DNA of 64,000 nucleotides, taken from NCBI RefSeq assembly GCF_000744825.1, contig NZ_JQMR01000001.1:1721501-1785500 (forward strand), in the 5' to 3' direction. The notes beneath the pieces were generated by a model that saw only the letters and a list, made by a program, of their open reading frames with translations, was not told where the DNA came from and did not search any database. This DNA comes from Carnobacterium mobile DSM 4848 (GTDB taxonomy: Bacteria > Bacillota > Bacilli > Lactobacillales > Carnobacteriaceae). Shown in pieces: positions 42,656 to 58,138 of this stretch. Position numbers and translations under genes: made by a program. Within the stretch, counting starts at the first letter, position 1. Each line of letters opens with the position of its first letter.

Positions 42656-42728
42656 GGTTCCTTAGCTCAGTTGGGAGAGCACTACCTCGACAAGGTAGGG
42701 GTCGCTGGTTCGAGCCCAGTAGGGACCA
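42656..42728 (+). tRNA. tRNA-Val (anticodon GAC), insertion target
   Basis: Cloverleaf with acceptor GGTTCCT / AGGGACC (one G-T pair), discriminator A, anticodon stem CTACC/GGTAG with loop TCGACAA giving GAC (valine, GTC codon), and T-arm GGTTCGAGCC. CCA is not encoded. Its last 13 bases belong to the 15-bp repeat that marks the left end of the integrated element. Confidence 0.95.
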
Positions 42729-42730
42729 TA
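42716..42730 (+). other. attL core repeat
   Basis: CCAGTAGGGACCATA covering the tRNA-Val 3' end, identical to 58119-58133. Confidence 0.9.
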
Positions 42731-42744
42731 CAGTAATTTTATAT

Positions 42745-42800
42745 GAAGCCTTAGAACAGTTGGTACGAGTGCATTCTCGCAACTTTCTAGGCTTCTTTTT
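42745..42800 (+). terminator. Element-supplied terminator behind tRNA-Val
   Basis: Long hairpin GAAGCCTTAGAACAGTT / AACTTTCTAGGCTTC (42745-42761 with 42781-42795) plus an inner GAG/CTC stem, followed by TTTTTT. It lies inside the element and replaces the tRNA's own terminator. Confidence 0.8.
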
Positions 42801-42806
42801 TGTTTC

Positions 42807-42828
42807 CCTTGCATATAAGCCTTGCATA
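42807..42828. repeat. Integrase arm-type repeats near attL
   Basis: Two direct copies of CCTTGCATA (42807-42815 and 42820-42828), 13 bases apart. Related pairs occur at 45385-45403 (inverted) and 57991-58012 near attR. Confidence 0.5.
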
Positions 42829-42847
42829 CGAATGAACGTTCTCATGA

Positions 42848-43993
42848 TTAAAAGCCCATAAAACTAGCGAACTTAGCAGCCGTTTCTTCTTTTCTTTCTT
42901 TAGTTACGTGTGTATAGATGTTCATTGTAACTTCATAACTACTGTGGCCAAGTCGTTCTTGAACTTCTTTGATACTTGCACCAGCTTCAAAAAGCAATGA
43001 ACAGTGCGAGTGGCGTAATTGGTGAACGGTGATGCGTTTAAGATTATGTTTCTTAACGATACGATCCATTACAGTGGTTAAGTGTGCATGCTGAATATAG
43101 TTATTTTCTAAGTTGGTAAATATATTCTGACCAGGTTTGTTTGTGTTCATACCTAGCTTTAAATAGTCTAAACGTTGCGCTGTACGCCATTGTTTTAGTA
43201 TCTCAAGGGTTTTATCATCTAACGAGATTGTACGCTCTCCGGACGTTGTTTTAGTGGTTTGAATAATAAGCTTATTACCTTCTCCTCTAGCAAGCGTCTT
43301 GTTTATAGAGATTGTTTTATTTTCAAAATTAATATCTTTCCATTGTAAGCCTAGTGCCTCACCTTTACGCATACCACTAAAGGACAGCAGGCGAAGCAGA
43401 ACAAACCATTTAGGGTTTTCTTCTTGTTTAGCACACTCCAAGAAATGCTCTAGTTCCTCACGACTATAAAAAGCGTAATCCTCTTTAGATGTTTTCTTTA
43501 AATTGGGAATATCCACACCACTCATAGGGTTCTTCTTAATAATATCCATTGCATAAATAGCATAATCGAAGATACGCTTACAGTAACCAGCCATAGATTT
43601 AGTTTTGGTTGTCTTTTTACTCCATTTATTAACCGCTTCTTGACAGTGCGCAAATGTAATGGCGGTTATACGCAGTTTTCCAAAGTCTTTTAAAATGTGG
43701 TTCTTAAATAGTTCTTTTGTTTTAACTGCCGTACTTTCTTTTACCTTATTTACATAACGAGATTCAAACCATAATTCATAAACTTCTTCGAACGTTTCGT
43801 AGGTGGGTTTTTGGTAGCCGTCTTCTTGATACTCTGATTTAAGCCGCATAGCTTCTTTTCTTGCATCACTTTTAGTAGCAAAGCCTTGTCTTGCTGCACG
43901 AACTACTTTCCCAGTTTCGTCTGTACCTAGATATGTTTGAAATTTGTAGTAGGTTTTACCGTTTTTCTTCGTATAAGATTTAATTTGTAACAT
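42848..43993 (-). CDS. Tyrosine site-specific integrase
   Basis: A 381-residue phage-type integrase. The N-terminal arm-binding domain (about 1-55, QGFATKSDARKEA) and core-binding SAM-like domain (about 62-160) precede the catalytic domain with Arg209 (FSGMRKGEAL), His324 and Arg327 (VHQLRHSH), His350 (RLGHSS) and Tyr360 (NIYTHV). All catalytic residues are intact. The ATG at 43993 has GGGAG 8 bases upstream. It reads toward the tRNA and would recombine the 15-bp core. Confidence 0.95.
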   Translation of the reverse strand: MLQIKSYTKKNGKTYYKFQTYLGTDETGKVVRAARQGFATKSDARKEAMRLKSEYQEDGYQKPTYETFEEVYELWFESRYVNKVKESTAVKTKELFKNHILKDFGKLRITAITFAHCQEAVNKWSKKTTKTKSMAGYCKRIFDYAIYAMDIIKKNPMSGVDIPNLKKTSKEDYAFYSREELEHFLECAKQEENPKWFVLLRLLSFSGMRKGEALGLQWKDINFENKTISINKTLARGEGNKLIIQTTKTTSGERTISLDDKTLEILKQWRTAQRLDYLKLGMNTNKPGQNIFTNLENNYIQHAHLTTVMDRIVKKHNLKRITVHQLRHSHCSLLFEAGASIKEVQERLGHSSYEVTMNIYTHVTKERKEETAAKFASFMGF

Positions 43994-44011
43994 TTTAATT
44001 ACTCCCTTTTT

Positions 44012-44030
44012 ACTACCGCAGGGCATTGGG
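44012..44030. repeat. Repeat ACTACCGCAGGGCATTGGG, copy 1
   Basis: Lies just upstream of the integrase ribosome site. A second copy with one change is at 45363-45381, and an inverted partial copy (AGCAGGGCATTGG) is at 57963-57975 near attR. Confidence 0.6.
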
Positions 44031-44070
44031 TATGTATAAGGGTTAGGCGTTTAATGAATTTATTGTAGAA

Positions 44071-44694
44071 TTATTTATTTTTATTATAAAACTCATTATA
44101 TTCTTCATGAGCTTCTTTTGGAGTTAAGCCAAAATGTTTTCTATACCAAAATATTACTTCTTTCAAATGTCTACTAACCTCATCTAACTTCTTATGCTTT
44201 TCATCTAAAGATAATTTTTCAAATTTTTCTAAATCACTCAATATTTCATTTCTCTTAGAAGCCACTGCATATATTTCTTTTCCGAAACGCAAAATATATT
44301 CTTCTTTTGTATCTAGCTGTTCCTCTTTAAACGCCTTGTAAGCTTTAATGACTTCTTCTTCATTAGGAAATTCGTCTTCTTTCCATCTATTTGTTATTAT
44401 CAGTGGATTTCTCGCTAACCATATAGTATTGTAATCATCTTTAATTTCATTGGCACTCTCTAATACGTCAACTATATAACTAGCTAATGAATCGTCTTTA
44501 CCACTAAAAAGATAAGCTTCTGATACACCGAGAGATTTAGAGAGTTTTGTGATTGTGTCAGCACTAGGACTCTTTCTGTTATTCTCTAAATCACCTAAAT
44601 ATGACCTTGATAAACCAATTTTGGAAGCAAAATCTTTTTGTGTCATTTTTCTTTCTTTTCGTATGTTTTTGATGTTCTCGCCTATGTTTGCCAC
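44071..44694 (-). CDS. CI/Stl-like XRE repressor
   Basis: A 207-residue protein with an N-terminal Cro/CI helix-turn-helix (IGENIKNIRKERKMTQKDFASKIGLSRSYLGDLENNRKSPS, residues 3-43). The C-terminal part is helical and charged, with no Ser-Lys peptidase motif, so it is not a LexA-type self-cleaving repressor. That is like satellite master repressors, which are relieved by a helper-phage protein. It is divergent from the early genes across a region with repeated operators. Confidence 0.85.
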   Translation of the reverse strand: MANIGENIKNIRKERKMTQKDFASKIGLSRSYLGDLENNRKSPSADTITKLSKSLGVSEAYLFSGKDDSLASYIVDVLESANEIKDDYNTIWLARNPLIITNRWKEDEFPNEEEVIKAYKAFKEEQLDTKEEYILRFGKEIYAVASKRNEILSDLEKFEKLSLDEKHKKLDEVSRHLKEVIFWYRKHFGLTPKEAHEEYNEFYNKNK

Positions 44695-44731
44695 GAAAAA
44701 ACACCTCCTTATTATTGATTAAACCACAAAA

Positions 44732-44819
44732 TGACGCCGATAGCAATAAATTTCATGCGAATGGTTGACGCCGATAGAATGATATGATAAACTATGTTTA
44801 GGTTGAATGACGCCGAAAG
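44732..44819. promoter_or_regulatory. Operator repeats TGACGCCGATAG in the divergent promoter region
   Basis: Three direct copies at 44732-44743, 44766-44777 and 44808-44819 (the last TGACGCCGAAAG), with a fourth at 45037-45048. The second overlaps TTGACG (44765-44770), which with TAAACT 17 bases on forms the probable rightward promoter. Repressor binding would block it. Confidence 0.8.
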
Positions 44820-44833
44820 AAAGAGGTGAGAGG

Positions 44834-45061
44834 ATGAATGTTGGAAAATTTCAAAAAGAATTACAAAATACCATGCTTATAGGTAGAAAAAATAAAAAAT
44901 GGACACAAGTAGAAGCAGCCGAACAACTTGGTATCTCTAGATCCTATTATTCAGAAATTGAAACCGGAATTAGTTTACCGAGTTTATCATTAGTTATAAA
45001 AATTAACAGTGTGTTTCCATTTTTTTTACTAATTAATGACGCCGATAGAGTGTTTATTTGA
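44834..45061 (+). CDS. Cro-like XRE protein
   Basis: A 75-residue single-domain HTH protein (GRKNKKWTQVEAAEQLGISRSYYSEIETGISLPSLSL). The ATG at 44834 follows AGAGGTGAG; an upstream in-frame ATG at 44807 lies within an operator copy. A fourth copy of the operator motif is inside its last codons. It is the first rightward gene and likely works with the repressor in the switch. Confidence 0.8.
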   Translation: MNVGKFQKELQNTMLIGRKNKKWTQVEAAEQLGISRSYYSEIETGISLPSLSLVIKINSVFPFFLLINDADRVFI

Positions 45062-45075
45062 AAGGAGTGAACTAA

Positions 45076-45354
45076 ATGGCACAACTATCTTTTGAAGTTT
45101 CTTCTGAACTGGAGAAGCAAATTGAAGGCATGGTATTCAACACAGCAAAGAACGTGCTTGCTGAATTAGAGAAAAGAGAACCTATGGGAAAACCATATAT
45201 GAATCTTAAGGAATGCTGCCAGTATGTGGGTTGTTCAAATGTAACTTTGAATGATTGGATAAGAGAACGAAAATTACAAGTTATCAAAATAGGTGGCAAG
45301 AAATATATCGCTAAAATAACAATCGATCAATTCATGATGAATCATCAGAAATAA
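45076..45354 (+). CDS. Excisionase-like helix-turn-helix protein
   Basis: A 92-residue protein. An N-terminal amphipathic helix (LEKQIEGMVFNTAKNVLAELEK) is followed by a winged HTH of the MerR/Xis type (YMNLKECCQYVGCSNVTLNDWIRERKLQVIKIGGKKYI). Such proteins in phage and satellites act as excisionase or AlpA-type activators. AAAGGAG precedes the ATG. The TLNDW helix recurs in the small protein at 56258-56524. Confidence 0.7.
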   Translation: MAQLSFEVSSELEKQIEGMVFNTAKNVLAELEKREPMGKPYMNLKECCQYVGCSNVTLNDWIRERKLQVIKIGGKKYIAKITIDQFMMNHQK

Positions 45355-45362
45355 AAAAACAC

Positions 45363-45403
45363 ACTACCGCAGGGCATAGGGAAGTGCAAGGGAATGTGCA
45401 AGG
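45363..45403. repeat. Second copy of the ACTACCGCAGGGCAT repeat with paired TGCAAGG motifs
   Basis: ACTACCGCAGGGCATAGGG (45363-45381) is followed by two TGCAAGG copies 12 bases apart (45385-45391, 45397-45403), the inverse of the CCTTGCA arm motif near attL. Confidence 0.5.
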
Positions 45404-45518
45404 ATTTAATACATTCAACGTTACAAAATCACAAAAGTCAACCGTTTATAGGGTTAAAGCAGTCAAGTATTTGGAGTTAATAAGGTTCATAACAGTGAAA
45501 AATAGGAGGAAATAAAAG

Positions 45519-45767
45519 ATGAATATTCATGAAAAAGTAGATATGCAATACAAATTTGTAGAAGCTTTCAATAGTAGAAACGATGAAAATGATGGTGCAA
45601 TAAAAGATTTAGAAACATTAGTTGGTTATTACAAAGAAGGGCATGAGGTATTAAGTAGTATGGACATCGTCAATGAAATGTTTTCTGTTATCCAAGATAT
45701 GTATTCAATAGAAATTGAGAAAGATACCTTGAGTAAGGTAATTAGAATTATCGGAGAGGAGGTTTAA
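45519..45767 (+). CDS. Hypothetical satellite protein
   Basis: An 82-residue acidic, mostly helical protein beginning MNIHEKVDMQYKFVEAFNS. TAGGAGGAAAT precedes the ATG. I recognise no domain. It starts a cluster of three small genes between the switch and the replication genes. Confidence 0.6.
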   Translation: MNIHEKVDMQYKFVEAFNSRNDENDGAIKDLETLVGYYKEGHEVLSSMDIVNEMFSVIQDMYSIEIEKDTLSKVIRIIGEEV

Positions 45768-45771
45768 TGAT

Positions 45772-45918
45772 ATGAAACCAGAAGAAAAAAAGGCAATGGA
45801 TAGTTTAAAAAAAGAATTAAATGACTACCCAGAAATGATGATGGTTACCATTTCAAGAAAAGATTTAGAAACAGTTATCAATTATTTAAAAAAGAGCACA
45901 AAAAAAGCCTTGAAATGA
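45772..45918 (+). CDS. Hypothetical 48-residue satellite protein
   Basis: Encodes MKPEEKKAMDSLKKELNDYP and a further 28 residues ending KKSTKKALK. GGAGAGGAGG lies just upstream of the ATG, and it begins 4 bases after the previous stop. Helical and lysine-rich; no known domain. Confidence 0.55.
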   Translation: MKPEEKKAMDSLKKELNDYPEMMMVTISRKDLETVINYLKKSTKKALK

Positions 45919-46016
45919 GCGACGAGCTCCACAAGGCAAATAGGTATAACTAGTAACTAGACACTACTATTATACCCCAAAAGAGTAAGAAATACTATAA
46001 GAATGGGGCTTTAACA

Positions 46017-46304
46017 ATGGGAAAAGAACAATTAGGTGAGTTAATAAATAAATCTGAGAACATCTCTACAAAAAATGAATACTCAAAAGCTGTTTTGATG
46101 TCAATCCATAGTATCTTTGATGGAATTATAGACTGCACTAATGAAAAAGAAGATAAAAAAGATTGGACCTTTTATGAAGTTGAACGAGTAGCAGAAAGAA
46201 CTGAAATCCTTTTAAACTTACTTTCTGACTTATTAAAAGATTCCAGTAGTTTTAATGATGAATTAGCAATTCAATTAATGCTGCTGAAAGATGAAGAAAT
46301 GTAG
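46017..46304 (+). CDS. Hypothetical satellite protein
   Basis: A 95-residue acidic helical protein (MGKEQLGELINKSENISTKNEYSK opening in part). The GGGGCTTTAACA region upstream is only a modest ribosome site. It ends 9 bases before the primase gene, so it is likely in the same operon. No domain recognised. Confidence 0.55.
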   Translation: MGKEQLGELINKSENISTKNEYSKAVLMSIHSIFDGIIDCTNEKEDKKDWTFYEVERVAERTEILLNLLSDLLKDSSSFNDELAIQLMLLKDEEM

Positions 46305-46313
46305 GTGAGTTAA

Positions 46314-47165
46314 ATGGTTGCATACGAATCTTTGCTAACAGACGCATTGAAACTCACTAAAACGTTTGACGTATATCCATTAGCGCCATTCACAAATATT
46401 CCTTTTCGTGGATCCAACGGAGATTTAAACGCCACTAAAGACCACCAGTTAATAGTTGAATGGTTTGAGAAAGAACCTTTGAGTAGTTTAGGATTGCGAT
46501 TGAAAAATACAAATGTATTAGTGTTGGATGTTGACGACCATCTAAACGATGGAGCAGGTATAAAAGAACTGGCTGCATTATCTAATGGCAATAGTTTAGA
46601 GGGCGCTACAATCGTTAAAACTCCGAACGGTCAAGGTTTTCACGCTTACTATCATTTTCCGTCTAACCTAACTATTGAAGATGTAAATTTAACAAATAAT
46701 ATCGAAATTTTAAGAACGAAAGTTACCGCACCAGGCTCAAGAAAGAGATTGAAAGATGGTTCGATTGGTGAATATGTTTTAGCTGCTGAATCTTCTTTAA
46801 ATGACTTAAAAATGATGCCTAAATGGCTTCTTGATTTGATTATGAGTAAGCAGCAAGGGGAACAACCAAATACGACGTACCAGTTAGATTACAACAATAC
46901 AGCAGGGCGGACTAAAAAATATACTGCCACCTTGATCGAGGAGCTGACTCGAGGTGTACAGACATCCGAAAGAAATATTTGGGTGACAAAATACACAGGC
47001 AAACTTCTAGCTTTAGGAACGGAGCCAGATATAGCGTATCAATTTATCATGATGGTTAATGAGAGTTTTGTGCGACCTCCTTTACCAGATAGAGAAGTGA
47101 ATTCCATTTTTCGAAGTGTATTAAAACGTGAAGTTAGGAAGAGAGGGGGAGAAATAAGTGAATGA
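46314..47165 (+). CDS. Primase-polymerase (Prim-Pol) with PriCT domain
   Basis: A 283-residue replication protein. The N-terminal half is a bifunctional primase/polymerase domain: the metal-binding D-x-D is Asp72 and Asp74 in VLVLDVDDH, and the conserved His110 is in TPNGQGFHAYYH, with GSRKR near 140. The C-terminal part (about 205-275, RGVQTSERNIWVTKYTGKLLALG) looks like a PriCT_1 domain. It would prime replication from the nearby iteron origin. Stop and start overlap the helicase gene by 4 bases. Confidence 0.88.
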   Translation: MVAYESLLTDALKLTKTFDVYPLAPFTNIPFRGSNGDLNATKDHQLIVEWFEKEPLSSLGLRLKNTNVLVLDVDDHLNDGAGIKELAALSNGNSLEGATIVKTPNGQGFHAYYHFPSNLTIEDVNLTNNIEILRTKVTAPGSRKRLKDGSIGEYVLAAESSLNDLKMMPKWLLDLIMSKQQGEQPNTTYQLDYNNTAGRTKKYTATLIEELTRGVQTSERNIWVTKYTGKLLALGTEPDIAYQFIMMVNESFVRPPLPDREVNSIFRSVLKREVRKRGGEISE

Positions 47166-48694
47166 GTGAGATGCCGGAAGATATCAAAAATTTAGTAAAA
47201 GAATATAAAGATAGCAACACAGAACTTTCAAATAAACCTTATCTAACTATGGAAAGTTTGAAATCAGCGCTTGCTGCAAAAGGGGAAGAATGGCGATTAG
47301 ATCACGAGACTGTAAATGAAAAGACGGGGAAAACGAAAAAATACCCGGTCAGTCCAAGAGCAGTTGCTGATATCCTTCAAAAAGAATGTACATTTTGTCT
47401 TATCGGAGAAGATGATCCGGAGAGTTCTCCTCTGGCTGTATACGATATAGATAATGGTATCTATAACAAAGGTGAACGATTTATAAACAGTCTCTCTTTA
47501 ACTGTAGAAAGAACTCTTAACGAACCTTCATGTAAGACTGTAAGGCATTATTTAACTGTTGAAAGCGTAGAGAAAGAACCTACTAAAGATAAGAACCTTA
47601 TTATTGTTAATAATGGTATTTATGATAAAAAAAAAGCTTCTCTAGTACCCTTCAGCGATGAATATATTTTTGTAAATAAGATCGCAACAAACTATATAGA
47701 AGATGCAGCAGAACCGAAATTTGACGATTGGAACTTTTCAGAATGGATTGATGAATTATCAGACAATGACGAAAAGAAAAAAAACTTACTTTATCAAATT
47801 TTTGCAGTAGCAGTGAATAGTAATTATATTTCTGAAGTAGCATTTTTCTTCGTTAGTGAAGAAGGAAGAACGGGAAAATCAACTTTTCAGAATTTATTAA
47901 AAAATTTAATTGGTAATAAGAATACAACTAGTTTAAAAATCAAAGAATTTGAAAGTGATTTTAAGCTAGCCAGCGCATATAGCAAAAGCTTGATTATTGG
48001 TGATGATAACAATCCTAAAGATTTTAACCAAACAAGTGAAAATTTTAAATCGGTTATCACTGGAGAACTTGTTTTAATTAACCCGAAAATGGTTAAACCA
48101 TTCTCTACCATATTAACCCCTACGGTTATTCAGTCAATGAATGGCACTCCTAAATTTAATGATGTATCGGATGGTTTGCTTAGAAGATTAAGGATTATTC
48201 GTTTTAACCATTCGTATAAGGGGAACCATGGAAATAGAAAAATCAAAGAAGAATATATTTGCGATAAACGCTTATTAGAATACATTTTGTTTGTTGCTTT
48301 AAATCTTGATGTTATCGAAGTGGAAAACACTAAAGAAAGTGAAGAAGCTGTAAAAGATATAGCAAAAGATAATGATCCGGTTATTGAATTTTATGAAGAT
48401 GTTTTTTACCAGTTGGAAAGCACCAGATTACCTACGAAATTTATATTCTCTTTATATCAAGCTTGGTGCGATATCGAAAATAACCCAACTAAAATGAAGC
48501 AGCGGACATTTACCAAGAATTTAAGAAGCATAGTTACAAAAGACGGTTGGCTTTACGATGTGAAAAACCTTGCACCAATTCACTTTTTTTCTAAACGAGA
48601 TGAAGAATTGTTAAAAGAATGGGACATAAACTACAAATATAGGTTTGAAGTAGACACAAAAAAGTATCAACCTTTGATTGAAAAAATAGAGTAA
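47162..48694 (+). CDS. D5/P4-type replicative helicase
   Basis: A 510-residue SF3-like helicase of the phage/plasmid primase-associated D5 type. Walker A SEEGRTGKST is at 232-241, the next strand SLIIGDDNN (about 276-284) fits the acidic motif, and PTVIQSMNGTPKF carries the sensor Asn. A winged-helix-like C-terminus (about 400-500) could bind the origin. Together with the Prim-Pol it forms the satellite replication pair; the origin follows directly downstream. Confidence 0.87.
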   Translation: MSEMPEDIKNLVKEYKDSNTELSNKPYLTMESLKSALAAKGEEWRLDHETVNEKTGKTKKYPVSPRAVADILQKECTFCLIGEDDPESSPLAVYDIDNGIYNKGERFINSLSLTVERTLNEPSCKTVRHYLTVESVEKEPTKDKNLIIVNNGIYDKKKASLVPFSDEYIFVNKIATNYIEDAAEPKFDDWNFSEWIDELSDNDEKKKNLLYQIFAVAVNSNYISEVAFFFVSEEGRTGKSTFQNLLKNLIGNKNTTSLKIKEFESDFKLASAYSKSLIIGDDNNPKDFNQTSENFKSVITGELVLINPKMVKPFSTILTPTVIQSMNGTPKFNDVSDGLLRRLRIIRFNHSYKGNHGNRKIKEEYICDKRLLEYILFVALNLDVIEVENTKESEEAVKDIAKDNDPVIEFYEDVFYQLESTRLPTKFIFSLYQAWCDIENNPTKMKQRTFTKNLRSIVTKDGWLYDVKNLAPIHFFSKRDEELLKEWDINYKYRFEVDTKKYQPLIEKIE

Positions 48695-48973: not shown

Positions 48974-49013
48974 TTGAATCCTAAAAAAAGAATAAATGAA
49001 AAGGAGCTGAAAC

Positions 49014-49229
49014 ATGACATTTTATAATTGGCTGATTAAGTTTAGAACTGTCGACCTAGCTATTGGAGAGTTAGCACAAGATGTATATAACGATGCTAAA
49101 TTTCCTAAAGGGTCAAACGATTATAACAAGCTACTAAATTACTTGATATCTACTGCTGATAACGATGATTGTGTAGACACTTTTGTAAAAGCGTTTAAAT
49201 TTTATGAAATTAGTATAAAAGGAGCTTAG
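49014..49229 (+). CDS. Hypothetical YozE-like small protein
   Basis: A 71-residue protein, MTFYNWLIKFRTVDLAIGEL then DVYNDAKFPKGSNDYNKLLNYL. The pattern FYNWL, D...D..FP and the C-terminal helix resembles the YozE/SAM-like small proteins (about 70 residues) of Firmicutes. AAAGGAGCTG precedes the ATG. First gene after the origin. Confidence 0.6.
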   Translation: MTFYNWLIKFRTVDLAIGELAQDVYNDAKFPKGSNDYNKLLNYLISTADNDDCVDTFVKAFKFYEISIKGA

Positions 49230-49233
49230 ATAC

Positions 49234-49542
49234 ATGAAGAATAAAAAACTGTCCATTATTCAAGAAGCTGTATTAACACAAATACCTAAAGGGATTGAAA
49301 ACCCGATATTATCGCAAGATATTGCGAAAAGAATTGGATTGTCAAGACGTGATGTAATGGCCGTAATCAGTGCGTTGATTATAGATCATAACATACCGAT
49401 TGGAGGTGCTCGAATAAGTGGTAAAAGTGGGTATTTTATTATCACTAACGAAGCCGAGCGCCTCAGAGCAATAGTGCCACTGAAAAATACAATAGTTAAC
49501 ATGCAGCAACGAGTTAATCGTTTAGAGAAAATTAAAATATGA
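49234..49542 (+). CDS. Winged-helix protein with C-terminal RLEK helix
   Basis: A 102-residue protein. Residues 8-80 fit a winged helix (AVLTQIPKGIENPILSQDIAKRIGLSRRDVMAVISALI, then a wing GARISGKSGYFII). The end NMQQRVNRLEKIKI is a short amphipathic helix of the same type found at the start of the next small proteins. DNA binding is likely; target unknown. Confidence 0.65.
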   Translation: MKNKKLSIIQEAVLTQIPKGIENPILSQDIAKRIGLSRRDVMAVISALIIDHNIPIGGARISGKSGYFIITNEAERLRAIVPLKNTIVNMQQRVNRLEKIKI

Positions 49543-49569
49543 GGATGCCATGATAAAAGGTGGGATTAG

Positions 49570-49794
49570 ATGAGACAACTTTCCAGAAGAGCTAAGTTAC
49601 TTGAGGATATGCTTCCAAAAGAAAATGCTGAACAAGTCATTATGCTTTTAATAGAACATAGTGATGGTACAGCTACATTTACTGATAAAAAAGGAACAAA
49701 AAAAGAATTGAATCAGCTTTTGGGCGAAAGTGATAAAGACATCACATTATTGTTATCGACATTTGAAACAGACGTTAAGCCACTGTATGGATAG
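49570..49794 (+). CDS. Small protein with N-terminal RRAKLLE helix
   Basis: A 74-residue protein starting MRQLSRRAKLLEDMLPKEN, then a beta-like stretch (QVIMLLIEHSDGTATFTDKKG). Acidic C-terminus. AGGTGGGATTAG precedes the ATG. No known domain; the opening helix is shared with neighbours. Confidence 0.6.
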   Translation: MRQLSRRAKLLEDMLPKENAEQVIMLLIEHSDGTATFTDKKGTKKELNQLLGESDKDITLLLSTFETDVKPLYG

Positions 49795-49827
49795 GTATTA
49801 TACACGAAGGAGAAAAGAGGTGAAATA

Positions 49828-50046
49828 TTGGCTAAAGAAATCACTAATAGGCTAAAACGATTAGAAAAAATAGTCAATATAAATAGAGAAGATGTATTTT
49901 TAGTTTTTCTTTTCGAAGGTGAATATGACATATTCAATGCGGTAACTATGAAAGACATTGGTTCAATGAGCGAAAAAGCTTTCAGTAATTGGTTAATTGA
50001 AGTTGAACAATCTGGAGCAACGGTCATTGTTGACGATATTTTATAA
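49828..50046 (+). CDS. Small protein with N-terminal RLKRLE helix
   Basis: A 72-residue protein starting at TTG 49828 (AGAAAAGAGGTG upstream). Opening AKEITNRLKRLEKIVN, then a strand VFLVFLFEGEYDIFNAV and a helix SEKAFSNWLIEVEQSG. The fold plan helix-strands-helix matches the next gene's product, so the two may be paralogues. Confidence 0.6.
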   Translation: MAKEITNRLKRLEKIVNINREDVFLVFLFEGEYDIFNAVTMKDIGSMSEKAFSNWLIEVEQSGATVIVDDIL

Positions 50047-50085
50047 AAACCAATATAAAATCCGACATATAAGGAGGTAAAACAC

Positions 50086-50322
50086 ATGAAGCAGCGGTTA
50101 AATGAACGTTTGAAATTATTGGAGTATAAAACGTCAAGGAACGATTCCCGTCCTTTGTTCATTGATATTATTGAAGATGGAATAGTAGAAATTTATTCTG
50201 AAATAGATGGTAAAAAAGAACGAATGAGTGAAGAAGAATATGCAAGATGGAGTAAACAGTTTTTACAATCAAAAGAAATAGCAAACTTTGAGTTGAACTT
50301 AGGCCGATGGGAAAATGGGTAA
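50086..50322 (+). CDS. Small protein with N-terminal RLKLLE helix
   Basis: A 78-residue protein, MKQRLNERLKLLEYKTSRND, then strands LFIDIIEDGIVEIYS and a helix SEEEYARWSKQFLQ. It follows the pattern of the previous product. AAGGAGGTAAAAC precedes the ATG. Confidence 0.6.
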   Translation: MKQRLNERLKLLEYKTSRNDSRPLFIDIIEDGIVEIYSEIDGKKERMSEEEYARWSKQFLQSKEIANFELNLGRWENG

Positions 50323-50366
50323 TTTTAAGACAGTAGTTACACAAAACAATACATGGAGGTGGAAAA

Positions 50367-50738
50367 TTGATTCAACTAAAACCGAAACAAGAGAAGTTCA
50401 TTATTGCATTAATGAGTAAAGCAACAACAGAAGAAGCAATAGAAGAAGCTGGGATAAATAGAAATACAGCATATAAGTATTTACGAGATCCAGATTTTTC
50501 TAATGAATACCGTAGAATTAGACGGGAAACAATGCAACAAGTCACTTCTAAGCTTCAAAACGCTTCATTTATAGCGGTAGAAACGTTATTGGATGTAATG
50601 GCAGATAAAGAGTTGTCAACTTCATCATCAAGGGTGCAGGCATCAAGAGCAGTCCTAGAGAACGCATATAAAGGGCTTGAACTGGACGACTTGCAGCAGC
50701 GTATTGAGCAATTAGAAGAAAGATTGGGTGATTCCTGA
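50367..50738 (+). CDS. Small-terminase-like HTH protein (phBC6A51 type)
   Basis: A 123-residue protein with an N-terminal HTH (KPKQEKFIIALMSKATTEEAIEEAGINRNTAYKYLRDPDF), a helical middle and a C-terminal helix DLQQRIEQLEERLGDS. This is the plan of the phBC6A51-type HTH and of small terminase subunits. Satellites often encode TerS to redirect packaging by the helper's TerL; no TerL lies here. Start TTG at 50367 with GGAGGTGG upstream. Function as TerS is inferred. Confidence 0.65.
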   Translation: MIQLKPKQEKFIIALMSKATTEEAIEEAGINRNTAYKYLRDPDFSNEYRRIRRETMQQVTSKLQNASFIAVETLLDVMADKELSTSSSRVQASRAVLENAYKGLELDDLQQRIEQLEERLGDS

Positions 50739-50977
50739 TGAAAAATAAAAATATTATCGCTCGATTGAAGCAATTGGAAGATAAAGTACCAAACTTAGAA
50801 AGATTAACAGAACAACGCTATGAAGAAGCAGCAAAGAAAGTTTTGGAACAAGCCACTACAGAAGAATTGAGAATAGCTTCAATGAGCGACAAATATAGAG
50901 ATATATCAGAAGAAGAATCACTTGAAATGCTTGAGATCCTTTCTGAACGTGTTCGTTTAGTGATTCAACAAAGATAG
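50738..50977 (+). CDS. Small coiled-coil protein with RLKQLE helix
   Basis: A 79-residue, almost wholly helical protein: MKNKNIIARLKQLEDKVPNL, then RYEEAAKKVLEQATTEELRI and SLEMLEILSERVRLVIQ. It shares one base with the TerS-like stop. Likely an assembly partner of its neighbours. Confidence 0.6.
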   Translation: MKNKNIIARLKQLEDKVPNLERLTEQRYEEAAKKVLEQATTEELRIASMSDKYRDISEEESLEMLEILSERVRLVIQQR

Positions 50978-51168
50978 GGTAGTTACTACCGACACCATCG
51001 ACAAATTAGGTGTTGCGAAAGTAGGTAACTCCAAACCATATAAGAGTAAAAGGCTGCTATCTAAAGGTAATAAGGTTGTTTTATAGTTAAAACCAAGAAA
51101 TGCTTGCATATTTACTTGCACTTGGAACAGAAAAAAACATATTTTGCAGGAGAGGTGGAGGTGAACTA
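50978..51168. other. Short gap before the coiled-coil genes
   Basis: Nothing clearly coding. It ends with AGGAGAGGTGGAGG, the ribosome site of the next gene. Confidence 0.4.
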
Positions 51169-51621
51169 TTGGAAGATGTGCAAATTTATGACCTACAGGA
51201 AAAGCGAGACGATATAAACAAATGGCTAAACCTCCCCTACTCTATTGCTGAATTGGAGTATGAGCTAAAAACATTTAGCCAAAGCTACTACCAAGAACAC
51301 AGCTTCTACTCTCATACTATTTATGACGAGATACATGGCGTAATTACCGAAGCCCCTAGAGTTGAAGATGTAGCAATCAACTTAGCAGATAGTTCTTTAG
51401 TGCTTGAAAGCCATATAAAGCGAAATAAGGCAGAATACAAGTTATTTGAACAGTATGTGTCGCGTTTACCCGTGTTTGAAGTAGATAGCTTAAACGATAA
51501 GGAAGTAACCGAATTATGCAGTGTCATACAAGAAATCAAGAAAATTTCCCGAACAAATAATATAGATTTAAAAATCAAGTTAGAAAAAGAATTTAAAAAT
51601 AGAATGGAGAAATTAATATGA
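51169..51621 (+). CDS. Hypothetical helical satellite protein
   Basis: A 150-residue protein, LEDVQIYDLQEKRDDINKWL opening, rich in Glu, Lys and Tyr and mostly helical. The TTG at 51169 is chosen because AGGTGGAGG ends 8 bases before it; an upstream ATG at 51100 has no ribosome site. Stop overlaps the next start by 4 bases. No recognised domain. Confidence 0.6.
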   Translation: MEDVQIYDLQEKRDDINKWLNLPYSIAELEYELKTFSQSYYQEHSFYSHTIYDEIHGVITEAPRVEDVAINLADSSLVLESHIKRNKAEYKLFEQYVSRLPVFEVDSLNDKEVTELCSVIQEIKKISRTNNIDLKIKLEKEFKNRMEKLI

Positions 51622-52259: not shown

Positions 52260-52260
52260 T

Positions 52261-52518
52261 ATGACAAAATTAAACTATGAACGAATGTACAAAGATTTGA
52301 CAAATAAGATCGTTACGTTGAAAGGTACTGATCCATTAGGGCAAAAGGTGGAAACCAAGACCGTTATTAATCTACTGAACATAGTAGAAGACCACGAGAA
52401 AGAACTTGTCAAAAGTGAAGCACCAGAACAAATTGAATCGACTAACAGCGAGCCAACCGATCAGCCAGCCAATCTTATTAGAGATTTTGCTAGGAGTAAT
52501 CGTATCGTTAAAGACTAA
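52261..52518 (+). CDS. Small protein with C-terminal DFARSNR motif
   Basis: An 85-residue protein starting MTKLNYERMYKDLTNKIVTL, with a Glu/Ser/Pro-rich linker (about 50-70) and the tail LIRDFARSNRIVKD, matching the upstream product's C-terminus. GGAGGGAAATAAT precedes the ATG. Confidence 0.6.
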   Translation: MTKLNYERMYKDLTNKIVTLKGTDPLGQKVETKTVINLLNIVEDHEKELVKSEAPEQIESTNSEPTDQPANLIRDFARSNRIVKD

Positions 52519-52537
52519 GTAACTGGGGGAAAGACTA

Positions 52538-52828: not shown

Positions 52829-52943
52829 ATTATTTGTCTGGTTTGTAATATTTATTTTTGGATCCGTTACATTAGGTATGGCGTTATGGCTACTTGGTTT
52901 TATATGGACTGGTGTTCTTGAATTATGGAGTGCGCTGTTATAA
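52809..52943 (+). CDS. Small membrane protein (44 residues)
   Basis: MKKTVNKLFVWFVIFIFGSV and a further hydrophobic stretch, one or two membrane spans. It starts within the last codons of the previous gene in another frame, with GAGGAAAAG just before the ATG. It is too short for a confident role. Confidence 0.5.
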   Translation: MKKTVNKLFVWFVIFIFGSVTLGMALWLLGFIWTGVLELWSALL

Positions 52944-52959
52944 ACCAATAGGAAGGATA

Positions 52960-53121
52960 ATGCAAATGGATAATATTAAATTGACAGAAAATGCAGTATA
53001 CGTCGTTAAAAATGGAAAACTAGAGTTAGTAGATATGCCTAAAAGTGGTTTTGGTAAGACTATTTTAAATTGGCAAGATGGCAAGGTAATAAGCAAGGAA
53101 ATAAGTTACACAATTCGATAA
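52960..53121 (+). CDS. XtrA/DUF3954-like small phage protein
   Basis: A 53-residue protein with NAVYVVKNGKLELVDMPKSG and FGKTILNWQDGKVISKE. The pattern V..G.L..V..P.SGFG....WQ.GKV resembles DUF3954/XtrA proteins of Firmicute phages. The ATG at 52960 follows AGGAAGGATA; earlier in-frame codons lack a ribosome site. Confidence 0.6.
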   Translation: MQMDNIKLTENAVYVVKNGKLELVDMPKSGFGKTILNWQDGKVISKEISYTIR

Positions 53122-53146
53122 CTAAATAGCTACTGTACAAAACAGG

Positions 53147-53188
53147 GCGTTAGTTGAGTGATCTAAATCACTTAATTAGCGCTCTTTT
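53147..53188 (+). terminator. Terminator upstream of the tape-measure gene
   Basis: Arms GCGTTAGTTGAGTGAT / ATCACTTAATTAGCGC (53147-53162 with 53167-53182), then TCTTTTTATTTT. It separates the early-type small genes from the tape-measure gene. Confidence 0.85.
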
Positions 53189-53268
53189 TATTTTACTTGA
53201 AAGAAGGTGGTTAAGAGAACAAGGGTGGGAGGATGGCGCAACATAAAGAGAAAGAAAGGTGAGAATAA

Positions 53269-55578
53269 ATGAGTCAATATTCAGTTGAAGCAATATTGAA
53301 AGCAAGTGGTGTGGAAAATTTCCAAAAAGCGTTCTCTAAAGCAGAAGAAGCCGTAAAAAAATTTAAAGATGCTGGCGCTAAATTCGGCGAGATAGGTAGT
53401 AGTTTCCAAGACGTTGGTAAATCAATGACCAAGGGCATAACCGCTCCTGTAGTAGCTGGTATAGGCGCAGTAGTTAAATCATACGCTGATTTAGAACAAG
53501 CAGTCGGTGGGATTGAAACGCTGTTCAAAGGCTCGGCAAGTGGCGTGATAAAAAACTCTGAATCAGCCTACAAGCGAGCTGGAGTGTCGGGCGTTAAGTA
53601 TATGGAGCAAGTAACATCGTTCTCAGCCACTCTTTTACAAGGGTTAGGCGGAGATACGGAAAAAGCCGGGGCGTATGCTGATAAAGCTATTGTTGATATG
53701 TCAGACAATGCGAATAAATTCGGTACAAACATTGGAGATATTCAAAATGCTTATCAAGGTTTCGCAAAAGATAACTATACAATGCTGGATAACTTAAAAC
53801 TTGGTTATGGTGGTACTGCGGGAGAAATGGCTCGCTTAGTAAACGAGTCTGGTGTTATGGGTGATTCGTTTGAAGCAACAGCTGAAAACGTTAAAGATAT
53901 ACCGTTCGATCAATTGATAGAAGCAATCCATCAAACGCAAGTAGAAATGGACGTTACAGGAACAACAGCAAAAGAAGCGAGTGAAACAGTTAGTGGTTCG
54001 TTTGATTCTATGAAGGCAGCAGGCGCAAATTTGTTAGCCGGATTAGGGGATTCAACTGCCGATATAGGTATTTTAATGGAGAACTTAGGCTCAACAGTGC
54101 AGATATTTGCAAATAACGTAAAGGGTGTTTTATCCACAATTTGGGATAACTTGCCGTTAACAGACTTTCAAAAGTGGGTAGGTTTAATTATCGTTGGTGC
54201 TGGTCCTGTTCTGTTAGCTTTCGGGACGGTGTTAGGTGTGATAAGCAAAGTCGGTTTAGCTATCCAAGCAATGCCAGCAATACTATCTCTCTTGACAGGA
54301 CCTGTTGGTATCGTTATAGGATTGTTAGCTGGTCTAATTGCAATTGGTGTGTTAGTTGCTGCTAATTGGGACACAATAAAAGAAGCAGCTACTAATATGT
54401 TTAACTCGATTTTTCCAAACTTTGAAGAGTTTAAAAATGTAATATTAGATTTGTGGGAAACAATCAAAACCTCATTTTCTGCAGGAAACTTTGATGAAGT
54501 TTCAGCGTTAGTAGGTGTAATGGTTACTAAGATGGTTCAGTATATTAGTGATTCTATACCAATATTCTTAGAAAAAGGTTTAGAACTAGTAACTAATATT
54601 ATTAATGGAATTACACAAAAAGTGCCAGAACTCGTGCAAAAAGGACTAGAATTAATGGTTATGTTTGCAAATATACTCGCGGATAATTTACCTAAACTAT
54701 TGCGACTAGGAATGGAGTTCGTTACAAGCCTAATAAAAGGATTGACTGACAAGCTACCTGAATGGATTGCAAAAGGCGTGGAGATGGTTGTCAAAATAGT
54801 TAATTCTATTTCTCAAAATTTGCCAAAAATAATTCAAGCTGGTGGACGTATGCTTTCTTCTGCGGCAAAAGGTTTTAGGGATAAATTTCCAGAGATGTTA
54901 AATGCAGCTGTTCAATTAATAGCTAAATTATTGGCTTCTCTAATGTCTAATCTCCCCAAATTACTAGCTGCAGGAGTTAAGTTAATTCTTTCACTGGTAA
55001 AGGGACTGATTCAAACAATACCTTCTGTTTTGAGTGCAATATTCGACATGGGGTCTGGTATCGTTGAAGGTGTAACCGGTATTGATTTATTTTCAGCCGG
55101 TAAAGCGATCATTGAAGGTTTCTTACGAGGTTTAAAATCAGCATACGAAGGTGTCAAATCATTTGTAAGCGGCATAGCTGGTTGGATTGAATCCCATAAA
55201 GGTCCGATATCCTATGATAAAAAACTTTTAATTGGTGCAGGTAACGCCATCATGGGTGGTTTGAACAAAGGTTTGCAAACGAGCTTTAAAGACGTTCAGG
55301 CAACCGTTAGCGGTATGGCTGGTTCGATTTATGATACCATGAACACTTCGCCAGTAATGGACATCAACGGCTCAATCGCACGAAGTAATGCACAGGTTAA
55401 ATCAAGCGTATCGCATGAATTGAAAAACAACAGTAGTAGCAGGTTAGAAAACGCCATTATGAAGCTAGCTAACCAAGGCATCTATTTAGATGGAGATACA
55501 TTAGTTGGTGGAACGTATGCGAGATACGATAAGATGGGCGGAAATAAAACACAGTTAAACGAAAGGTGGGGCAGATAG
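53269..55578 (+). CDS. Phage tail tape-measure-like protein
   Basis: A 769-residue protein. Residues 1-260 match the start of TP901-type tape measures ([54 protein letters not shown]). Two hydrophobic segments follow (about 300-370). Residues 420-600 hold repeated amphipathic units of about 20-25 residues with a KxPE or LPKL spacing. The C-terminal third has [27 protein letters not shown]. Tape measures set tail length and enter the host membrane. It is short for the family and stands without any other tail gene. AAAGGTGAGAATAA precedes the ATG. Confidence 0.88.
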
Positions 55579-55585
55579 ACGAGGT

Positions 55586-55616
55586 AGGACTACCTAAATT
55601 CGGTAGTCCTTTCATT
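55586..55616 (+). terminator. Terminator after the tape-measure gene
   Basis: Perfect 9-bp arms AGGACTACC / GGTAGTCCT (55586-55594 with 55602-55610), then TTCATTATT. Confidence 0.75.
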
Positions 55617-55764
55617 ATTAATTATCAAATACTTTTTTAGAATTGACTTACAGATAGTTATACCTTTGGATTATGAAATGAGCTTAGGATGCTTCTAACA
55701 GGCACAAGTAAGATAACTAGTTTTTTGTTTTTTTATTTTCCATATCCTTCAATTCGTAACTCAT

Positions 55765-55795
55765 GGGTAGTCCATAATTGGACTACCCTATTTTA
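55765..55795 (+). repeat. Second GGTAGTCC hairpin
   Basis: Arms GGGTAGTCC / GGACTACCC (55765-55773 with 55780-55788), followed by TATTTTATA. It repeats the stem sequence of the hairpin at 55586 and ends 60 bases before the DUF771 gene. Confidence 0.6.
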
Positions 55796-55851
55796 TATAC
55801 ATTGGCAACAAAAAGCAGTACAATAAACCTTAAATATAAGGAGGTCAAACC

Positions 55852-56166
55852 ATGCAGCAACTAGAAGCTATCGTAAAAGTTGTTATTCCAGAAGAAATGA
55901 TATTAGTCAAAAAAGTTGAATACGAAGAATTGCAAAATGACAAAAAAACTGGCTGGGGAAACTTGCAATGGCTGCTTAAGGAGACAGAAATAAAAAGTCC
56001 TCAAACAATCAAAGAAAAAGTCCTTTATCCATTCAGGCAAGAACTCGAAGACTTTGTTTACTATCCTGACGAAGGTCAAAACTGGAAATTTAATAAAAAA
56101 CCAATGGTGAAATGGCTAGAAGAAAACTTCAAAAGAGTGTGGAACCGAAAAAACATGGTCTTGTAA
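55852..56166 (+). CDS. DUF771 family protein
   Basis: A 104-residue protein. The N-terminal strand and helix (VKKVEYEELQNDKKTGWGNLQWLL) and the C-terminal part (FVYYPDEGQNWKFNKKPMVKWLEENFKRVW) are the DUF771 pattern found in Firmicute phages and satellites. It looks like a small DNA-binding HTH protein related to excisionases. AAGGAGGTCAAACC precedes the ATG. Confidence 0.75.
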   Translation: MQQLEAIVKVVIPEEMILVKKVEYEELQNDKKTGWGNLQWLLKETEIKSPQTIKEKVLYPFRQELEDFVYYPDEGQNWKFNKKPMVKWLEENFKRVWNRKNMVL

Positions 56167-56257
56167 TAAAATTGCATGATTGTAAAATAATATAATTTTA
56201 CTACTGTTGTTTAAAAAAACTAATGGTATATAAAATAAATAATTGGAGGTCTAACTC

Positions 56258-56524
56258 ATGCCTAAACCAATCACGATAAACATCGAAGAAGTGAACCAAG
56301 ATCCGGAACGGGCAGAAATAAAATACGGAAATAAAGCAGTCGTTTGTAAACTTTATAGCTTGAACAAATCAACATTGAATGACTGGCTAAAAGATATGCG
56401 CGGCAATCCTAAGTTCGCTGAAGGAGTCATAAACCCTACTCATAAAATTGTACTGATCCACTTAGACACTTTCGAAGATTACTTTAGGTGGTTAGAAAAG
56501 AACCGGTATAAAAGAAAAAAATGA
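56258..56524 (+). CDS. Small HTH protein, excisionase-like
   Basis: An 88-residue protein with VCKLYSLNKSTLNDWLKDMRG and a C-terminal wing-like part (VLIHLDTFEDYFRWLEKN). The TLNDW helix is shared with the HTH protein at 45076-45354, and the overall plan resembles the preceding DUF771 protein. A recombination-directionality or regulatory role is possible. TTGGAGGTC precedes the ATG. Confidence 0.55.
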   Translation: MPKPITINIEEVNQDPERAEIKYGNKAVVCKLYSLNKSTLNDWLKDMRGNPKFAEGVINPTHKIVLIHLDTFEDYFRWLEKNRYKRKK

Positions 56525-56543
56525 ATCGAATGGAGGTGTAACC

Positions 56544-56690
56544 ATGCCTACAAAAAACAATAAAACAAAATTTACTGTTATCAATTACGACAAAAACGGA
56601 AAGGTCATTCATGACTTATCAAAGTTAGTTGTTCCGAGAGAATGGCAAATTGATCTATTGAAAACAATCAATCGGAATAATGGCTTTTAA
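56544..56690 (+). CDS. Small hypothetical phage-type protein (48 residues)
   Basis: MPTKNNKTKFTVINYDKNGK followed by VIHDLSKLVVPREWQ. Short strand-helix proteins of this sort are common in Lactobacillales phages and satellites. AATGGAGGTG precedes the ATG, 19 bases after the previous stop. Confidence 0.6.
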   Translation: MPTKNNKTKFTVINYDKNGKVIHDLSKLVVPREWQIDLLKTINRNNGF

Positions 56691-57100
56691 AAGGGTTGAA
56701 AAAGCGCTTTTTTGTGATAACTAAACTATCTATAATGAGTGTTTGTCTGCCAGCTAAAAGGTCACTTGGGATTTGATTAGCCGAAGCCAAAGTTAGACAG
56801 GTAATTTTTCTCTTTCTCTAATGCTGAATGAAGAACTTGCACTGACAACCTATTTTTACCACGATTGAAAGAGGTGTATCAGGTATAAATAGTGAATGGA
56901 AAAATTGTATAACGGACATGAATGCTTCTTGTGGTAGTTGGATTGACTAAACTATCTATAAAATATAAATTTCTATAAAAGAGTTTATTATACGTGAAAA
57001 ATACTCAATAATGAAAGAAATGTGACGGAAAACAACTCTTCATCTTAAGTGGTTTGAGATAAAATGCTTGATAAGCATTATTACAAGATGTAAGATGTAA
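56691..57100. other. Gene-free stretch with a 16-bp direct repeat
   Basis: No supportable gene. ACTAAACTATCTATAA occurs at 56720-56735 and again at 56946-56961. The first copy contains a good -10 (TATAAT, 56731-56736). The purpose of the repeat is unknown. Confidence 0.4.
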
Positions 57101-57270
57101 TAGAAGATAAGTTCAAAGCCATCTAGCGCCTTATCTTCTTTCTCAGAAACATTACCCATGTTTGCAGACGTGGAAAAAAGAGTGCACCACGTTGCCTGAC
57201 GGAGGCATGATATCCGATCGTTGGTCCCGCATGAGACGTCTTCATGCTTGCGCTCTTATTTTTTTTGTAT
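57101..57270 (+). ncRNA. Candidate structured RNA before the nuclease-like gene
   Basis: A dense run of hairpins: AGAAGATAAG / CTTATCTTCT near 57104-57142; ACGTGG / CCACGT (57168 and 57187), which competes with CCATGT / ACGTGG; and AGAGTGCA / TGCGCTCT near 57178-57256, enclosing TGCCT-GACGG-AGGCA and GCATGA-GACGTCT-TCATGC. A run of T follows at 57260. The last part is a multi-branched structure with an intrinsic terminator at its end, 30-40 bases before the next gene. I do not recognise a known RNA family. Confidence 0.5.
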
Positions 57271-57295
57271 TTTTTAGAGAGAGGTTGCTGCTTTT

Positions 57296-57877
57296 TTGGA
57301 AAATGTTAATTCTGTAAAAGATAGTAATACTACTCATCTTTTAAGTATATATAATAATTATCGTAAAAATTATCATGGGAAAATGGTCACAATTACTACT
57401 GGATACAAACCTTTTTCCACAATAGAAATAACATTTAATGAAAAACAATTACCTCACTTGTTAGGTTTACATAAAATTGATAAAGATAAAGCTTCTAAGC
57501 AATTAACGAGAATTAAAAATGAGACTCTAACTTATCAGACTTTAAAAAAAAATGACAATTTCTATCAAATAAAAGATAGAATAAAATACTTTTCTTTTAT
57601 AGATGATGTGTTTATTTTTCAAAAAGTTAAGCAATGTATATGTGTTTCAAAAGAAGATAGCAGAAATATTATGAGATTAGACATTGTCTTTTTAGAGGAC
57701 AATATCGAGAGGGTTCTTAATTTAGGACTTAGAAAAGACTTTTCTGGAAAATACGCGCCAGTTACATTCTTTGTTAGCAAAAATAAAGTAAAAAGTTATC
57801 CTTCGTCTAAAAGAGCGAAAATAGAAACTTTAGAATGGGATACAAGTTTGAGTTTATTAGAAAAATCAAAAAAATAA
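57296..57877 (+). CDS. Putative PBECR4-like nuclease (satellite cargo)
   Basis: A 193-residue protein. The segment LPHLLGLHKIDKDKA (about 52-66) and the following helix-strand pattern recall PBECR4 domains (BECR-fold, RelE/barnase-like nucleases of phages and mobile elements); this is from memory and not certain. The start is weak: TTG at 57296, with AGAGAGAGG about 12 bases upstream and no in-frame ATG nearby. It lies next to attR, the usual cargo slot of satellites, behind the structured RNA. Confidence 0.5.
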   Translation: MENVNSVKDSNTTHLLSIYNNYRKNYHGKMVTITTGYKPFSTIEITFNEKQLPHLLGLHKIDKDKASKQLTRIKNETLTYQTLKKNDNFYQIKDRIKYFSFIDDVFIFQKVKQCICVSKEDSRNIMRLDIVFLEDNIERVLNLGLRKDFSGKYAPVTFFVSKNKVKSYPSSKRAKIETLEWDTSLSLLEKSKK

Positions 57878-57883
57878 CTTCCT

Positions 57884-57925
57884 TAATCCCCTACTTCTTA
57901 ATAGAGTTAGGGTATTTTTTGTTTA
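57884..57925 (+). terminator. Terminator after the nuclease-like gene
   Basis: CCCCTA / TAGGG arms with a loose loop, followed by TATTTTTTG. Confidence 0.55.
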
Positions 57926-57962
57926 TTCCTAAAAATCCACTCTTCATAGAGTAGTTTAATAT

Positions 57963-58012
57963 CCAATGCCCTGCTTTTAGTAGTAGTTTTGCTTGCATGA
58001 TTTCCCTGCATA
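57963..58012. repeat. Repeats near attR (inverted ACTA..GCAGGGCATTGG and arm motifs)
   Basis: CCAATGCCCTGC (57963-57974) is the inverse of the repeat at 44012 and 45363. GCTTGCATGA (57991-58000) and CCCTGCATA (58004-58012) resemble the CCTTGCATA arm pair near attL. Confidence 0.5.
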
Positions 58013-58118
58013 CGTTATTAAATGTATTTATATCTATTTTACTATTTTTCTAGTTCCTTCTATATAATACTGCTAAATATCACACTAATTAAAAGCTATT
58101 AAAACACCTACTTCTAAA

Positions 58119-58133
58119 CCAGTAGGGACCATA
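58119..58133 (+). other. attR core repeat
   Basis: CCAGTAGGGACCATA, identical to the tRNA-Val end at 42716-42730. The tRNA's original downstream DNA continues from here. Confidence 0.9.
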
Positions 58134-58138
58134 TAGGT

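Follow-up and report, generated by a model that had tools for sequence, protein, structure and literature searches.

Phage satellites, according to passages of PMC13376191, have an integrase between attL and attR, a length of 7-20 kb, and regulatory and replication modules, and genes of structural proteins are absent from them; PMC6813308 also states of a pneumococcal satellite that it has no structural genes. For the phage-inducible chromosomal island (PICI)-like elements of Vibrio cholerae (PLEs), passages of PMC12987554 (Nature 2026) report that PLE11 replaces the tape-measure protein (TMP) of the helper in its virions, whose tails are ~10 nm shorter, and that the deletion of tmp cuts transduction by ~99.9% in PLE11, 96% in PLE1 and 99% in PLE4; Extended Data Fig. 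10 of this paper presents putative tmp genes in capsid-forming PICIs (cf-PICIs). The present report concerns a stretch of 64,000 nucleotides from Carnobacterium mobile DSM 4848 (NZ_JQMR01000001.1, positions 1,721,501 to 1,785,500; hereafter, the window), which contains an integrated island with an intact TMP gene. The island is a PICI-like phage satellite and belongs to the type described in streptococci; the carriage of a TMP is recurrent among these satellites, and their TMP gene is often a separate cassette insulated by terminators. Our searches of the open-licence PMC literature yielded no report of a TMP in a PICI-like satellite of Gram-positive bacteria, cf-PICIs excepted.

The tRNA-Val island and its satellite backbone

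The island occupies positions 42716-58133 of the window (15.4 kb) and is flanked by a 15-bp direct repeat from the 3' end of the tRNA-Val (gac) gene (42656-42728). The repeat, CCAGTAGGGACCATA, was found in the window at 42716 and 58119 only; 5e-5 copies are expected by chance (from the composition, for 64 kb and both strands). The first-pass annotation had given the element, the tRNA and both repeats exactly. Its integrase, repressor, Cro-like protein, excisionase-like helix-turn-helix (HTH) protein, Prim-Pol, D5 helicase, iterons, TerS-like protein and TMP were each matched by protein families or, for the iterons, by a word count; a second excisionase and a nuclease-like gene next to attR had been overlooked. 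The features on which the argument relies are as follows.

42716-42730, plus strand: attL core at the 3' end of tRNA-Val (15-bp repeat)
42848-44026, minus strand: tyrosine integrase (PF00589, 2e-29; SAM and Arm domains), 50-52% identical to the integrases of satellites L107 and L161
44071-44694, minus strand: CI-like repressor, 207 aa, with only HTH families in Pfam; a peptidase domain was not found
44807-45061, plus strand: Cro-like HTH protein (HTH_3, 2e-13)
45076-45354, plus strand: HTH_17, excisionase-like or regulatory DNA-binding protein (phrog_668, phrog_66)
46314-47165, plus strand: Prim-Pol with PriCT_1 (PF09250)
47162-48694, plus strand: D5-type helicase (PF19263, PF03288, PF08706), 62-64% identical to D5 of satellites L089 and L090
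48694-48974, no strand: iteron array, likely replication origin (11 ACCGAC/GTCGGT words)
50367-50738, plus strand: TerS-like protein of the satellite type (phrog_2538, 2.4e-6), 46-61% identical to those of L089, L090 and L161
51618-52259, plus strand: 213-aa protein with a hook-like C-terminus, DFAKSNRLIGGK, and weak matches to coiled-coil families
52261-52518, plus strand: 85-aa protein ending DFARSNRIVKD, a CpmB-like capsid-hook candidate by its C-terminal motif
53144-53185, plus strand: terminator hairpin upstream of the TMP gene (19 pairs, T-run, z -8.2)
53269-55578, plus strand: tail TMP, 769 aa, intact (phrog_58, 1.8e-97; both ends conserved)
55586-55610 and 55765-55788, plus strand: two hairpins downstream of the TMP gene (hairpin search)
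56258-56524, plus strand: excisionase (phrog_904, 8e-30)
58119-58133, plus strand: attR core (15-bp repeat)

The iteron array holds 11 of the 27 ACCGAC/GTCGGT words of the window within 281 bp, and any other 310-bp stretch of the window has at most 2. A longer pattern, CCGACNTTNA, was marginal (4 matches, equalled in 5 of 100 shuffles), and the shorter word was counted instead.

The backbone is that of the Streptococcus satellite prophages. The TerS-like protein matches 56 phage records, 53 of them named Streptococcus; the best 25 of the 56 are all satellite phages, and the identity to these 25 is 35-50%. For TerS of L090, the 56 matches consist of 53 Streptococcus satellite phages and three short phage records. 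Since this TerS family belongs to the Streptococcus satellite phages, the island is of the satellite type. The Javan set of Streptococcus satellite prophages, as presented in a part of PMC6813308, has the same end integrase, divergent repressor, replication module, and TerS-like gene toward the right end. It differs in the host and in the TMP, which was absent from all eight satellites read (of 53 listed) by the models used, i.e., one profile and seven single TMPs, which a divergent TMP could escape.

The closest D5 helicases are those of satellites L089 and L090. This pair differs in the TMP: L089 has none by the models used, and the TMP of L090 is distant from that of the window (24% identical over 372 residues); for this reason, the TMP seems to be a recurring accessory and not a marker of one clade. 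An IMG/VR element, L161, shares with the window the integrase (52% identical), TerS (61%), DUF771 protein (41%) and several small proteins; the part of it that was examined contains no TMP. A satellite in another genome of the genus (L107 in G002) is more distant (integrase 50%, D5 34%) and also has no TMP by these models. D5 as a query against viral contigs returned no relatives.

With respect to the definition cited at the beginning, the island has the integrase between the attachment sites, the size and both modules, and departs from it in the 769-aa structural protein; the same protein sets it apart from a Streptococcus-type satellite prophage, whose TerS-like gene it has. Its layout resembles that of PICIs, from which it differs in carrying a tail structural gene and in being known from its genes alone. 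It shares with PICIs and SaPI1 the size, the HTH repressor without a peptidase, the primase module and TerS, and it has a candidate for a C-terminal hook like that of CpmB (PMC5644958). The PLEs are alike in that the satellite encodes the TMP, and passages of PMC12987554 offer a working model for chimeric tails; they differ in also having a tail assembly chaperone (and, in PLE11, BhuB) and a helper with a contractile tail (ICP1). Like the island, the cf-PICIs of the same paper are satellites with a tmp gene, in their case a predicted one. No capsid genes were found in the island. This distinguishes it from cf-PICIs, which encode their own TerL, portal and capsid genes.

The first-pass annotation had regarded the island as a satellite that uses a helper phage and, owing to its unusual complement, as a possible new subgroup. 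The satellite assignment is well supported by the TerS family, the architecture, the attachment repeats and the lack of other structural genes; the use of a helper we infer. As for the subgroup, the backbone is a known one, and what is unusual, the TMP, looks like an accessory that recurs.

Tape-measure genes of the satellites

The TerS profile was positive in 24 of 395 genomes of the order (Lactobacillales). The 24 loci (19 newly retrieved, four earlier ones and the window) were all examined; 23 of them have an integrase related to that of the window within the examined stretch, the exception being L199, and TerS is interrupted by stops in L208 and L214. A full-length TMP is present at four: the window (769 aa), L090 (962 aa), L202 (792 aa) and L198 (1644 aa). 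The scan of genomes added a fifth TMP element, L085 (Aerococcaceae DSM 111176), with an integrase, repressor, Cro, Xis-like protein, primase-helicase and a TMP of 822 aa, which has 50-56% identity to other TMPs in alignments of 232-424 residues and no Pfam match; a capsid gene was not seen in it, three of its other proteins being profile-scanned. Direct repeats bound four of the five elements (15 bp in the window, 55 bp in L090, 18 bp in L085 and 97 bp in L202).

The open reading frames (ORFs) near TerS numbered 187 at the 24 loci, and 108 of them, from 23 loci, were scanned with profiles. They matched 84 families; among the best 25 of the 84, the head-or-tail families are all of the TMP type, and the endolysin family matching two scanned members is also matched by two TMPs. 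L202 has head genes, the major head protein (phrog_840, 9.6e-93) and a scaffold (phrog_2932, 3.8e-43), and is an intermediate between capsid-less and capsid-forming satellites; in this satellite (8493-9947), TerS, the TMP, the scaffold and the major head protein occur together, and the portal and TerL were not seen. In the L198 satellite (2124-7769), the 1644-aa TMP is accompanied by a phrog_1194 neighbour and an excisionase-like gene.

A second census retrieved 42 of the 66 other D5 matches in the order; its TMP-bearing members are L090 and a locus of G006 (L143/L144). The latter lies in a long run of head-tail-like genes on a 51.9-kb contig and was set aside, on reading, as a phage-like element. 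Eleven loci selected by the TMP (L095-L104 and L106) have long runs of head and tail genes and look like prophages of the usual kind; L105 was left out. Outside the order, TerS was found in four further genomes (five loci, one weak), where no TMP model matched. Two loci of one such genome (L220, 4143-7154; L221, 11445-13967) have, near this TerS type, proteins of 840-1003 aa with a glucosaminidase domain; they are possible TMP-lysin fusions. Despite a TMP-like look they matched no TMP family and were not counted.

The other twenty TerS loci have no TMP by the models used. This is what one would expect if the island were a true satellite and its TMP a neutral, unused passenger from a phage; however, an unused gene of 2.3 kb should drop out of a small packaged genome, and five intact and different copies argue for use. 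We therefore consider the passenger very unlikely.

The TMP genes of the satellites also differ from those of phages in their surroundings. A hairpin precedes the gene in three of the five satellites (the window, L090 and L202) and in none of 15 phages; a downstream hairpin was found in two of the five and, again, in none of the 15. The gap between the TMP and the preceding ORF is 51-177 nt in the satellites and at most 15 nt in 14 of the 15 phages. The one-sided Fisher test for the hairpins, calculated by hand, gives 0.009, with the phages not being an independent sample. For L202, a later in-frame start was used, the first one falling inside the hairpin.

An insulated gene could be expressed alone. 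Such expression would suit a TMP that is not a part of the virion but an interference factor, either a rival that spoils the tails of the helper or of competing phages or a decoy for TMP-sensing systems. The TMP is a reported target of the tail-blocking defences Tab (in a part of PMC10884400) and Rta (in passages of PMC12987554). A decoy would need less, however, than five long and open TMPs, that of the window having both conserved ends; the TMPs of PLEs act in the virion; and a scan of eight island proteins, including the TMP, against defence families gave no good match (best E 0.0077). Interference is possible but, in our opinion, unlikely.

The TMP of the window can be aligned over its full length with a phage TMP of 804 aa (the prophage of G304), with 47% identity and conserved ends, and its first 340 residues are 67% identical to a Streptococcus azizii prophage. 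Within the searches made, the best phage matches of the others are a G013 prophage for L085 (56% over 424 residues, with IMG/VR segments up to 66%), Lactococcus phage D4351 for L090 (32%), Brochothrix phage NF5 for L202 (38%) and Lactococcus phage TP712 for L198 (43%). For all five, a phage TMP is closer than any other satellite TMP, nearness being judged by bit score, without a tree. Because of this, the satellite TMPs look like separate captures. The closest satellite pair, L090 and L202 (31% over 650 residues, 290 bits; their phages score 393 and 438 bits), could share an older source. Tail shortening was rejected as a general purpose of these proteins: they are 769-1644 aa long, and the 962 aa of L090 exceed the listed match spans of its phage relatives (~865-949 codons).

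The TMP, the DUF771 and DUF3954 proteins and the excisionase match phage families, as they would in a decayed prophage stripped to the replicon and the TMP. Such an origin seems to us hardly probable at all: a broken structural gene was not seen; the replicon, the integrase and the repeats are undamaged; TerS is of a type that belongs to satellites; decay would not be expected to lead to similar elements with different TMPs in other genera; and the own hairpins of three satellite TMPs have no counterpart in the phages compared.

Candidate capsid hooks, the predicted helper and the remaining genes

The first-pass annotation had also stated that TerL, portal, capsid and lysis genes are missing, and indeed none of these families matched significantly among the island proteins scanned. 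Nor, judging from TerL, do such genes lie beside the island as parts of the same unit, and no close homologue described as a prophage remnant was found (no near match to the island DNA in 50,697 phage records). The search of the genome with a TerL-family profile (phrog_2 only) revealed one prophage, ~0.7 Mb from the island, at ~C1:1.009-1.054 Mb, with TerL, portal, capsid-like and scaffold genes and its own TMP of 1631 aa; a second match is weak (E 7e-4) and lies inside an ordinary-looking chromosomal ORF. The resident prophage is disfavoured as the helper: its scaffold has no RIIK end and its TMP is of another type. Over its full length, the TMP of satellite L198 has 38.5% identity to that of this prophage.

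In passages of PMC5644958, CpmB of SaPI1 and the scaffold of phage 80alpha have in common a C-terminal helix and hook with the motif RIIK, through which they bind the capsid protein. Scaffolds of the Javan573 type end GDIFRGSRIIK, to which the C-termini of the 85-aa and 213-aa proteins are to be compared. Among 2777 distinct ORF C-termini, six are RIIK-like: those of four scaffolds, three being of the Javan573 type and the fourth (L103) a scaffold by position, and those of two further proteins. The 85-aa protein is outside this pool, and its RIIK-like end was checked apart. Against the three Javan573-type ends, it ranks 6-11 of 2800. Of PICI capsid-redirection genes, only hook-like C-termini were observed, and they were spotted post hoc.

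Several results weigh against capsid redirection by these proteins. The 213-aa protein ranks only 43-77 of 2800, and tblastn found no relatives of it in phages. Neither end resembles any of four further scaffold types, one of which belongs to G304, the source of the closest phage TMP. For the 85-aa protein, nothing significant was found among solved structures (best E 0.39), and its two portal-family matches are at the level of chance (E 0.007-0.03). We regard the RIIK-like hook as a lead that was noticed after the fact.

The other genes of the island are listed below.

49014-49229, plus strand: YozE-like protein (PF06855, 4e-16)
49234-49542, plus strand: winged-HTH-like protein common to related satellites (phrog_2113)
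49570-50322, plus strand: three small proteins with the N-terminal motif R-[LA]-K-x-L-E; similar small proteins occur in other satellites
50738-50977, plus strand: fourth small protein of this type, by the motif
51100-51621, plus strand: protein with weak similarity to those of other satellites (sequence comparison)
52960-53121, plus strand: DUF3954 protein (family match)
55852-56166, plus strand: DUF771 protein, also present in satellite L161 (family match)
57296-57877, plus strand: PBECR4 nuclease-like cargo next to attR (PF18813, 2e-14; phrog_3446, 5e-51)

The four R-[LA]-K-x-L-E proteins surround TerS and have counterparts near TerS in several related satellites.

The tRNA-Val/rsmG side was compared in four other genomes of the genus (G001-G004), and one of them presents a clear unoccupied site: in G001, the tRNA-Val core leads into its terminator, and an rsmG-like gene lies ~1.5 kb on, with no island in between. 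In G004, the tRNA-Val sequence is ~3.7 kb off on the rsmG side; in G002 and G003, it was not seen in the 3.6-4.0 kb inspected on that side. Immediately beyond attR, at 58137-58189, there is a 25-bp inverted repeat (96% complementary), which is probably the displaced terminator of tRNA-Val. The ORF directly upstream of tRNA-Val (41103-42377) resembles an insertion sequence transposase on reading. The genes beside the island at 58347-60893 we take to be rsmG-, parA- and parB-like, and the L089 satellite (1299-5858) presumably adjoins mnmE/mnmG-like genes. Both gene groups are frequently proximal to the replication origin, which may be a coincidence for both islands.

A possible role of the satellite tape measure

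We think it fairly likely that this PICI-like satellite redirects the capsid and packaging of a helper siphovirus and makes chimeric tails with its own TMP as the ruler. The island would be excised from tRNA-Val by the integrase and excisionase and replicated from the iterons by Prim-Pol and the D5 helicase; the TerS-like protein, together with hook proteins that mimic the scaffold, would take over the packaging and shell assembly of the helper. Late in the cycle, the satellite TMP would be made from its separate, terminator-insulated gene, and the tail proteins of the helper would assemble around this ruler into a particle with a chimeric tail. What the sequences show is the element with its boundaries, genes and family, and the repeated carriage of a TMP, often as a cassette; helper dependence, capsid redirection and TMP incorporation are presumed. 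The chimeric tail is proposed by analogy, because the mechanism has been proven only for the Vibrio PLEs. The predicted helper is a siphovirus whose TMP is of the Javan573 type and whose scaffold ends in RIIK; the resident prophage has neither feature. As predictors of the helper, TMP type and RIIK hook are separate and do not agree in full.

The following should be held against this proposal, in addition to the hook results. The TMP is missing, by the models used, from most TerS loci and from the Streptococcus satellites read. L198 has no convincing att repeat, and the TMPs of L085 and L198 have no flanking hairpin. No family of tail assembly chaperones, which PLEs carry, matched among the island proteins scanned. 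The fold search with TerS gave nothing at E < 0.001, its sole suggestive match being the Bacillus phage protein 2ao9 (E 0.26, prob 0.96), and the TerS assignment is weak outside satellites.

It is tempting to go further and to propose that TMP exchange is a general weapon of Gram-positive satellites, captured repeatedly from different siphoviruses and often kept as an insulated cassette, which would retune the tail length or genome ejection or evade TMP-directed defences, with a CpmB-like hook redirecting the shell; we give this extension about an even chance. Five Gram-positive PICI-like satellites, one of which also has head genes, carry intact TMPs, and each of these TMPs is closest to a different phage; this suggests that the replacement of a single part in a stolen tail has been adopted repeatedly. 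The question of why a parasite replaces the ruler of a tail it steals may thus become testable in hosts unrelated to Vibrio.

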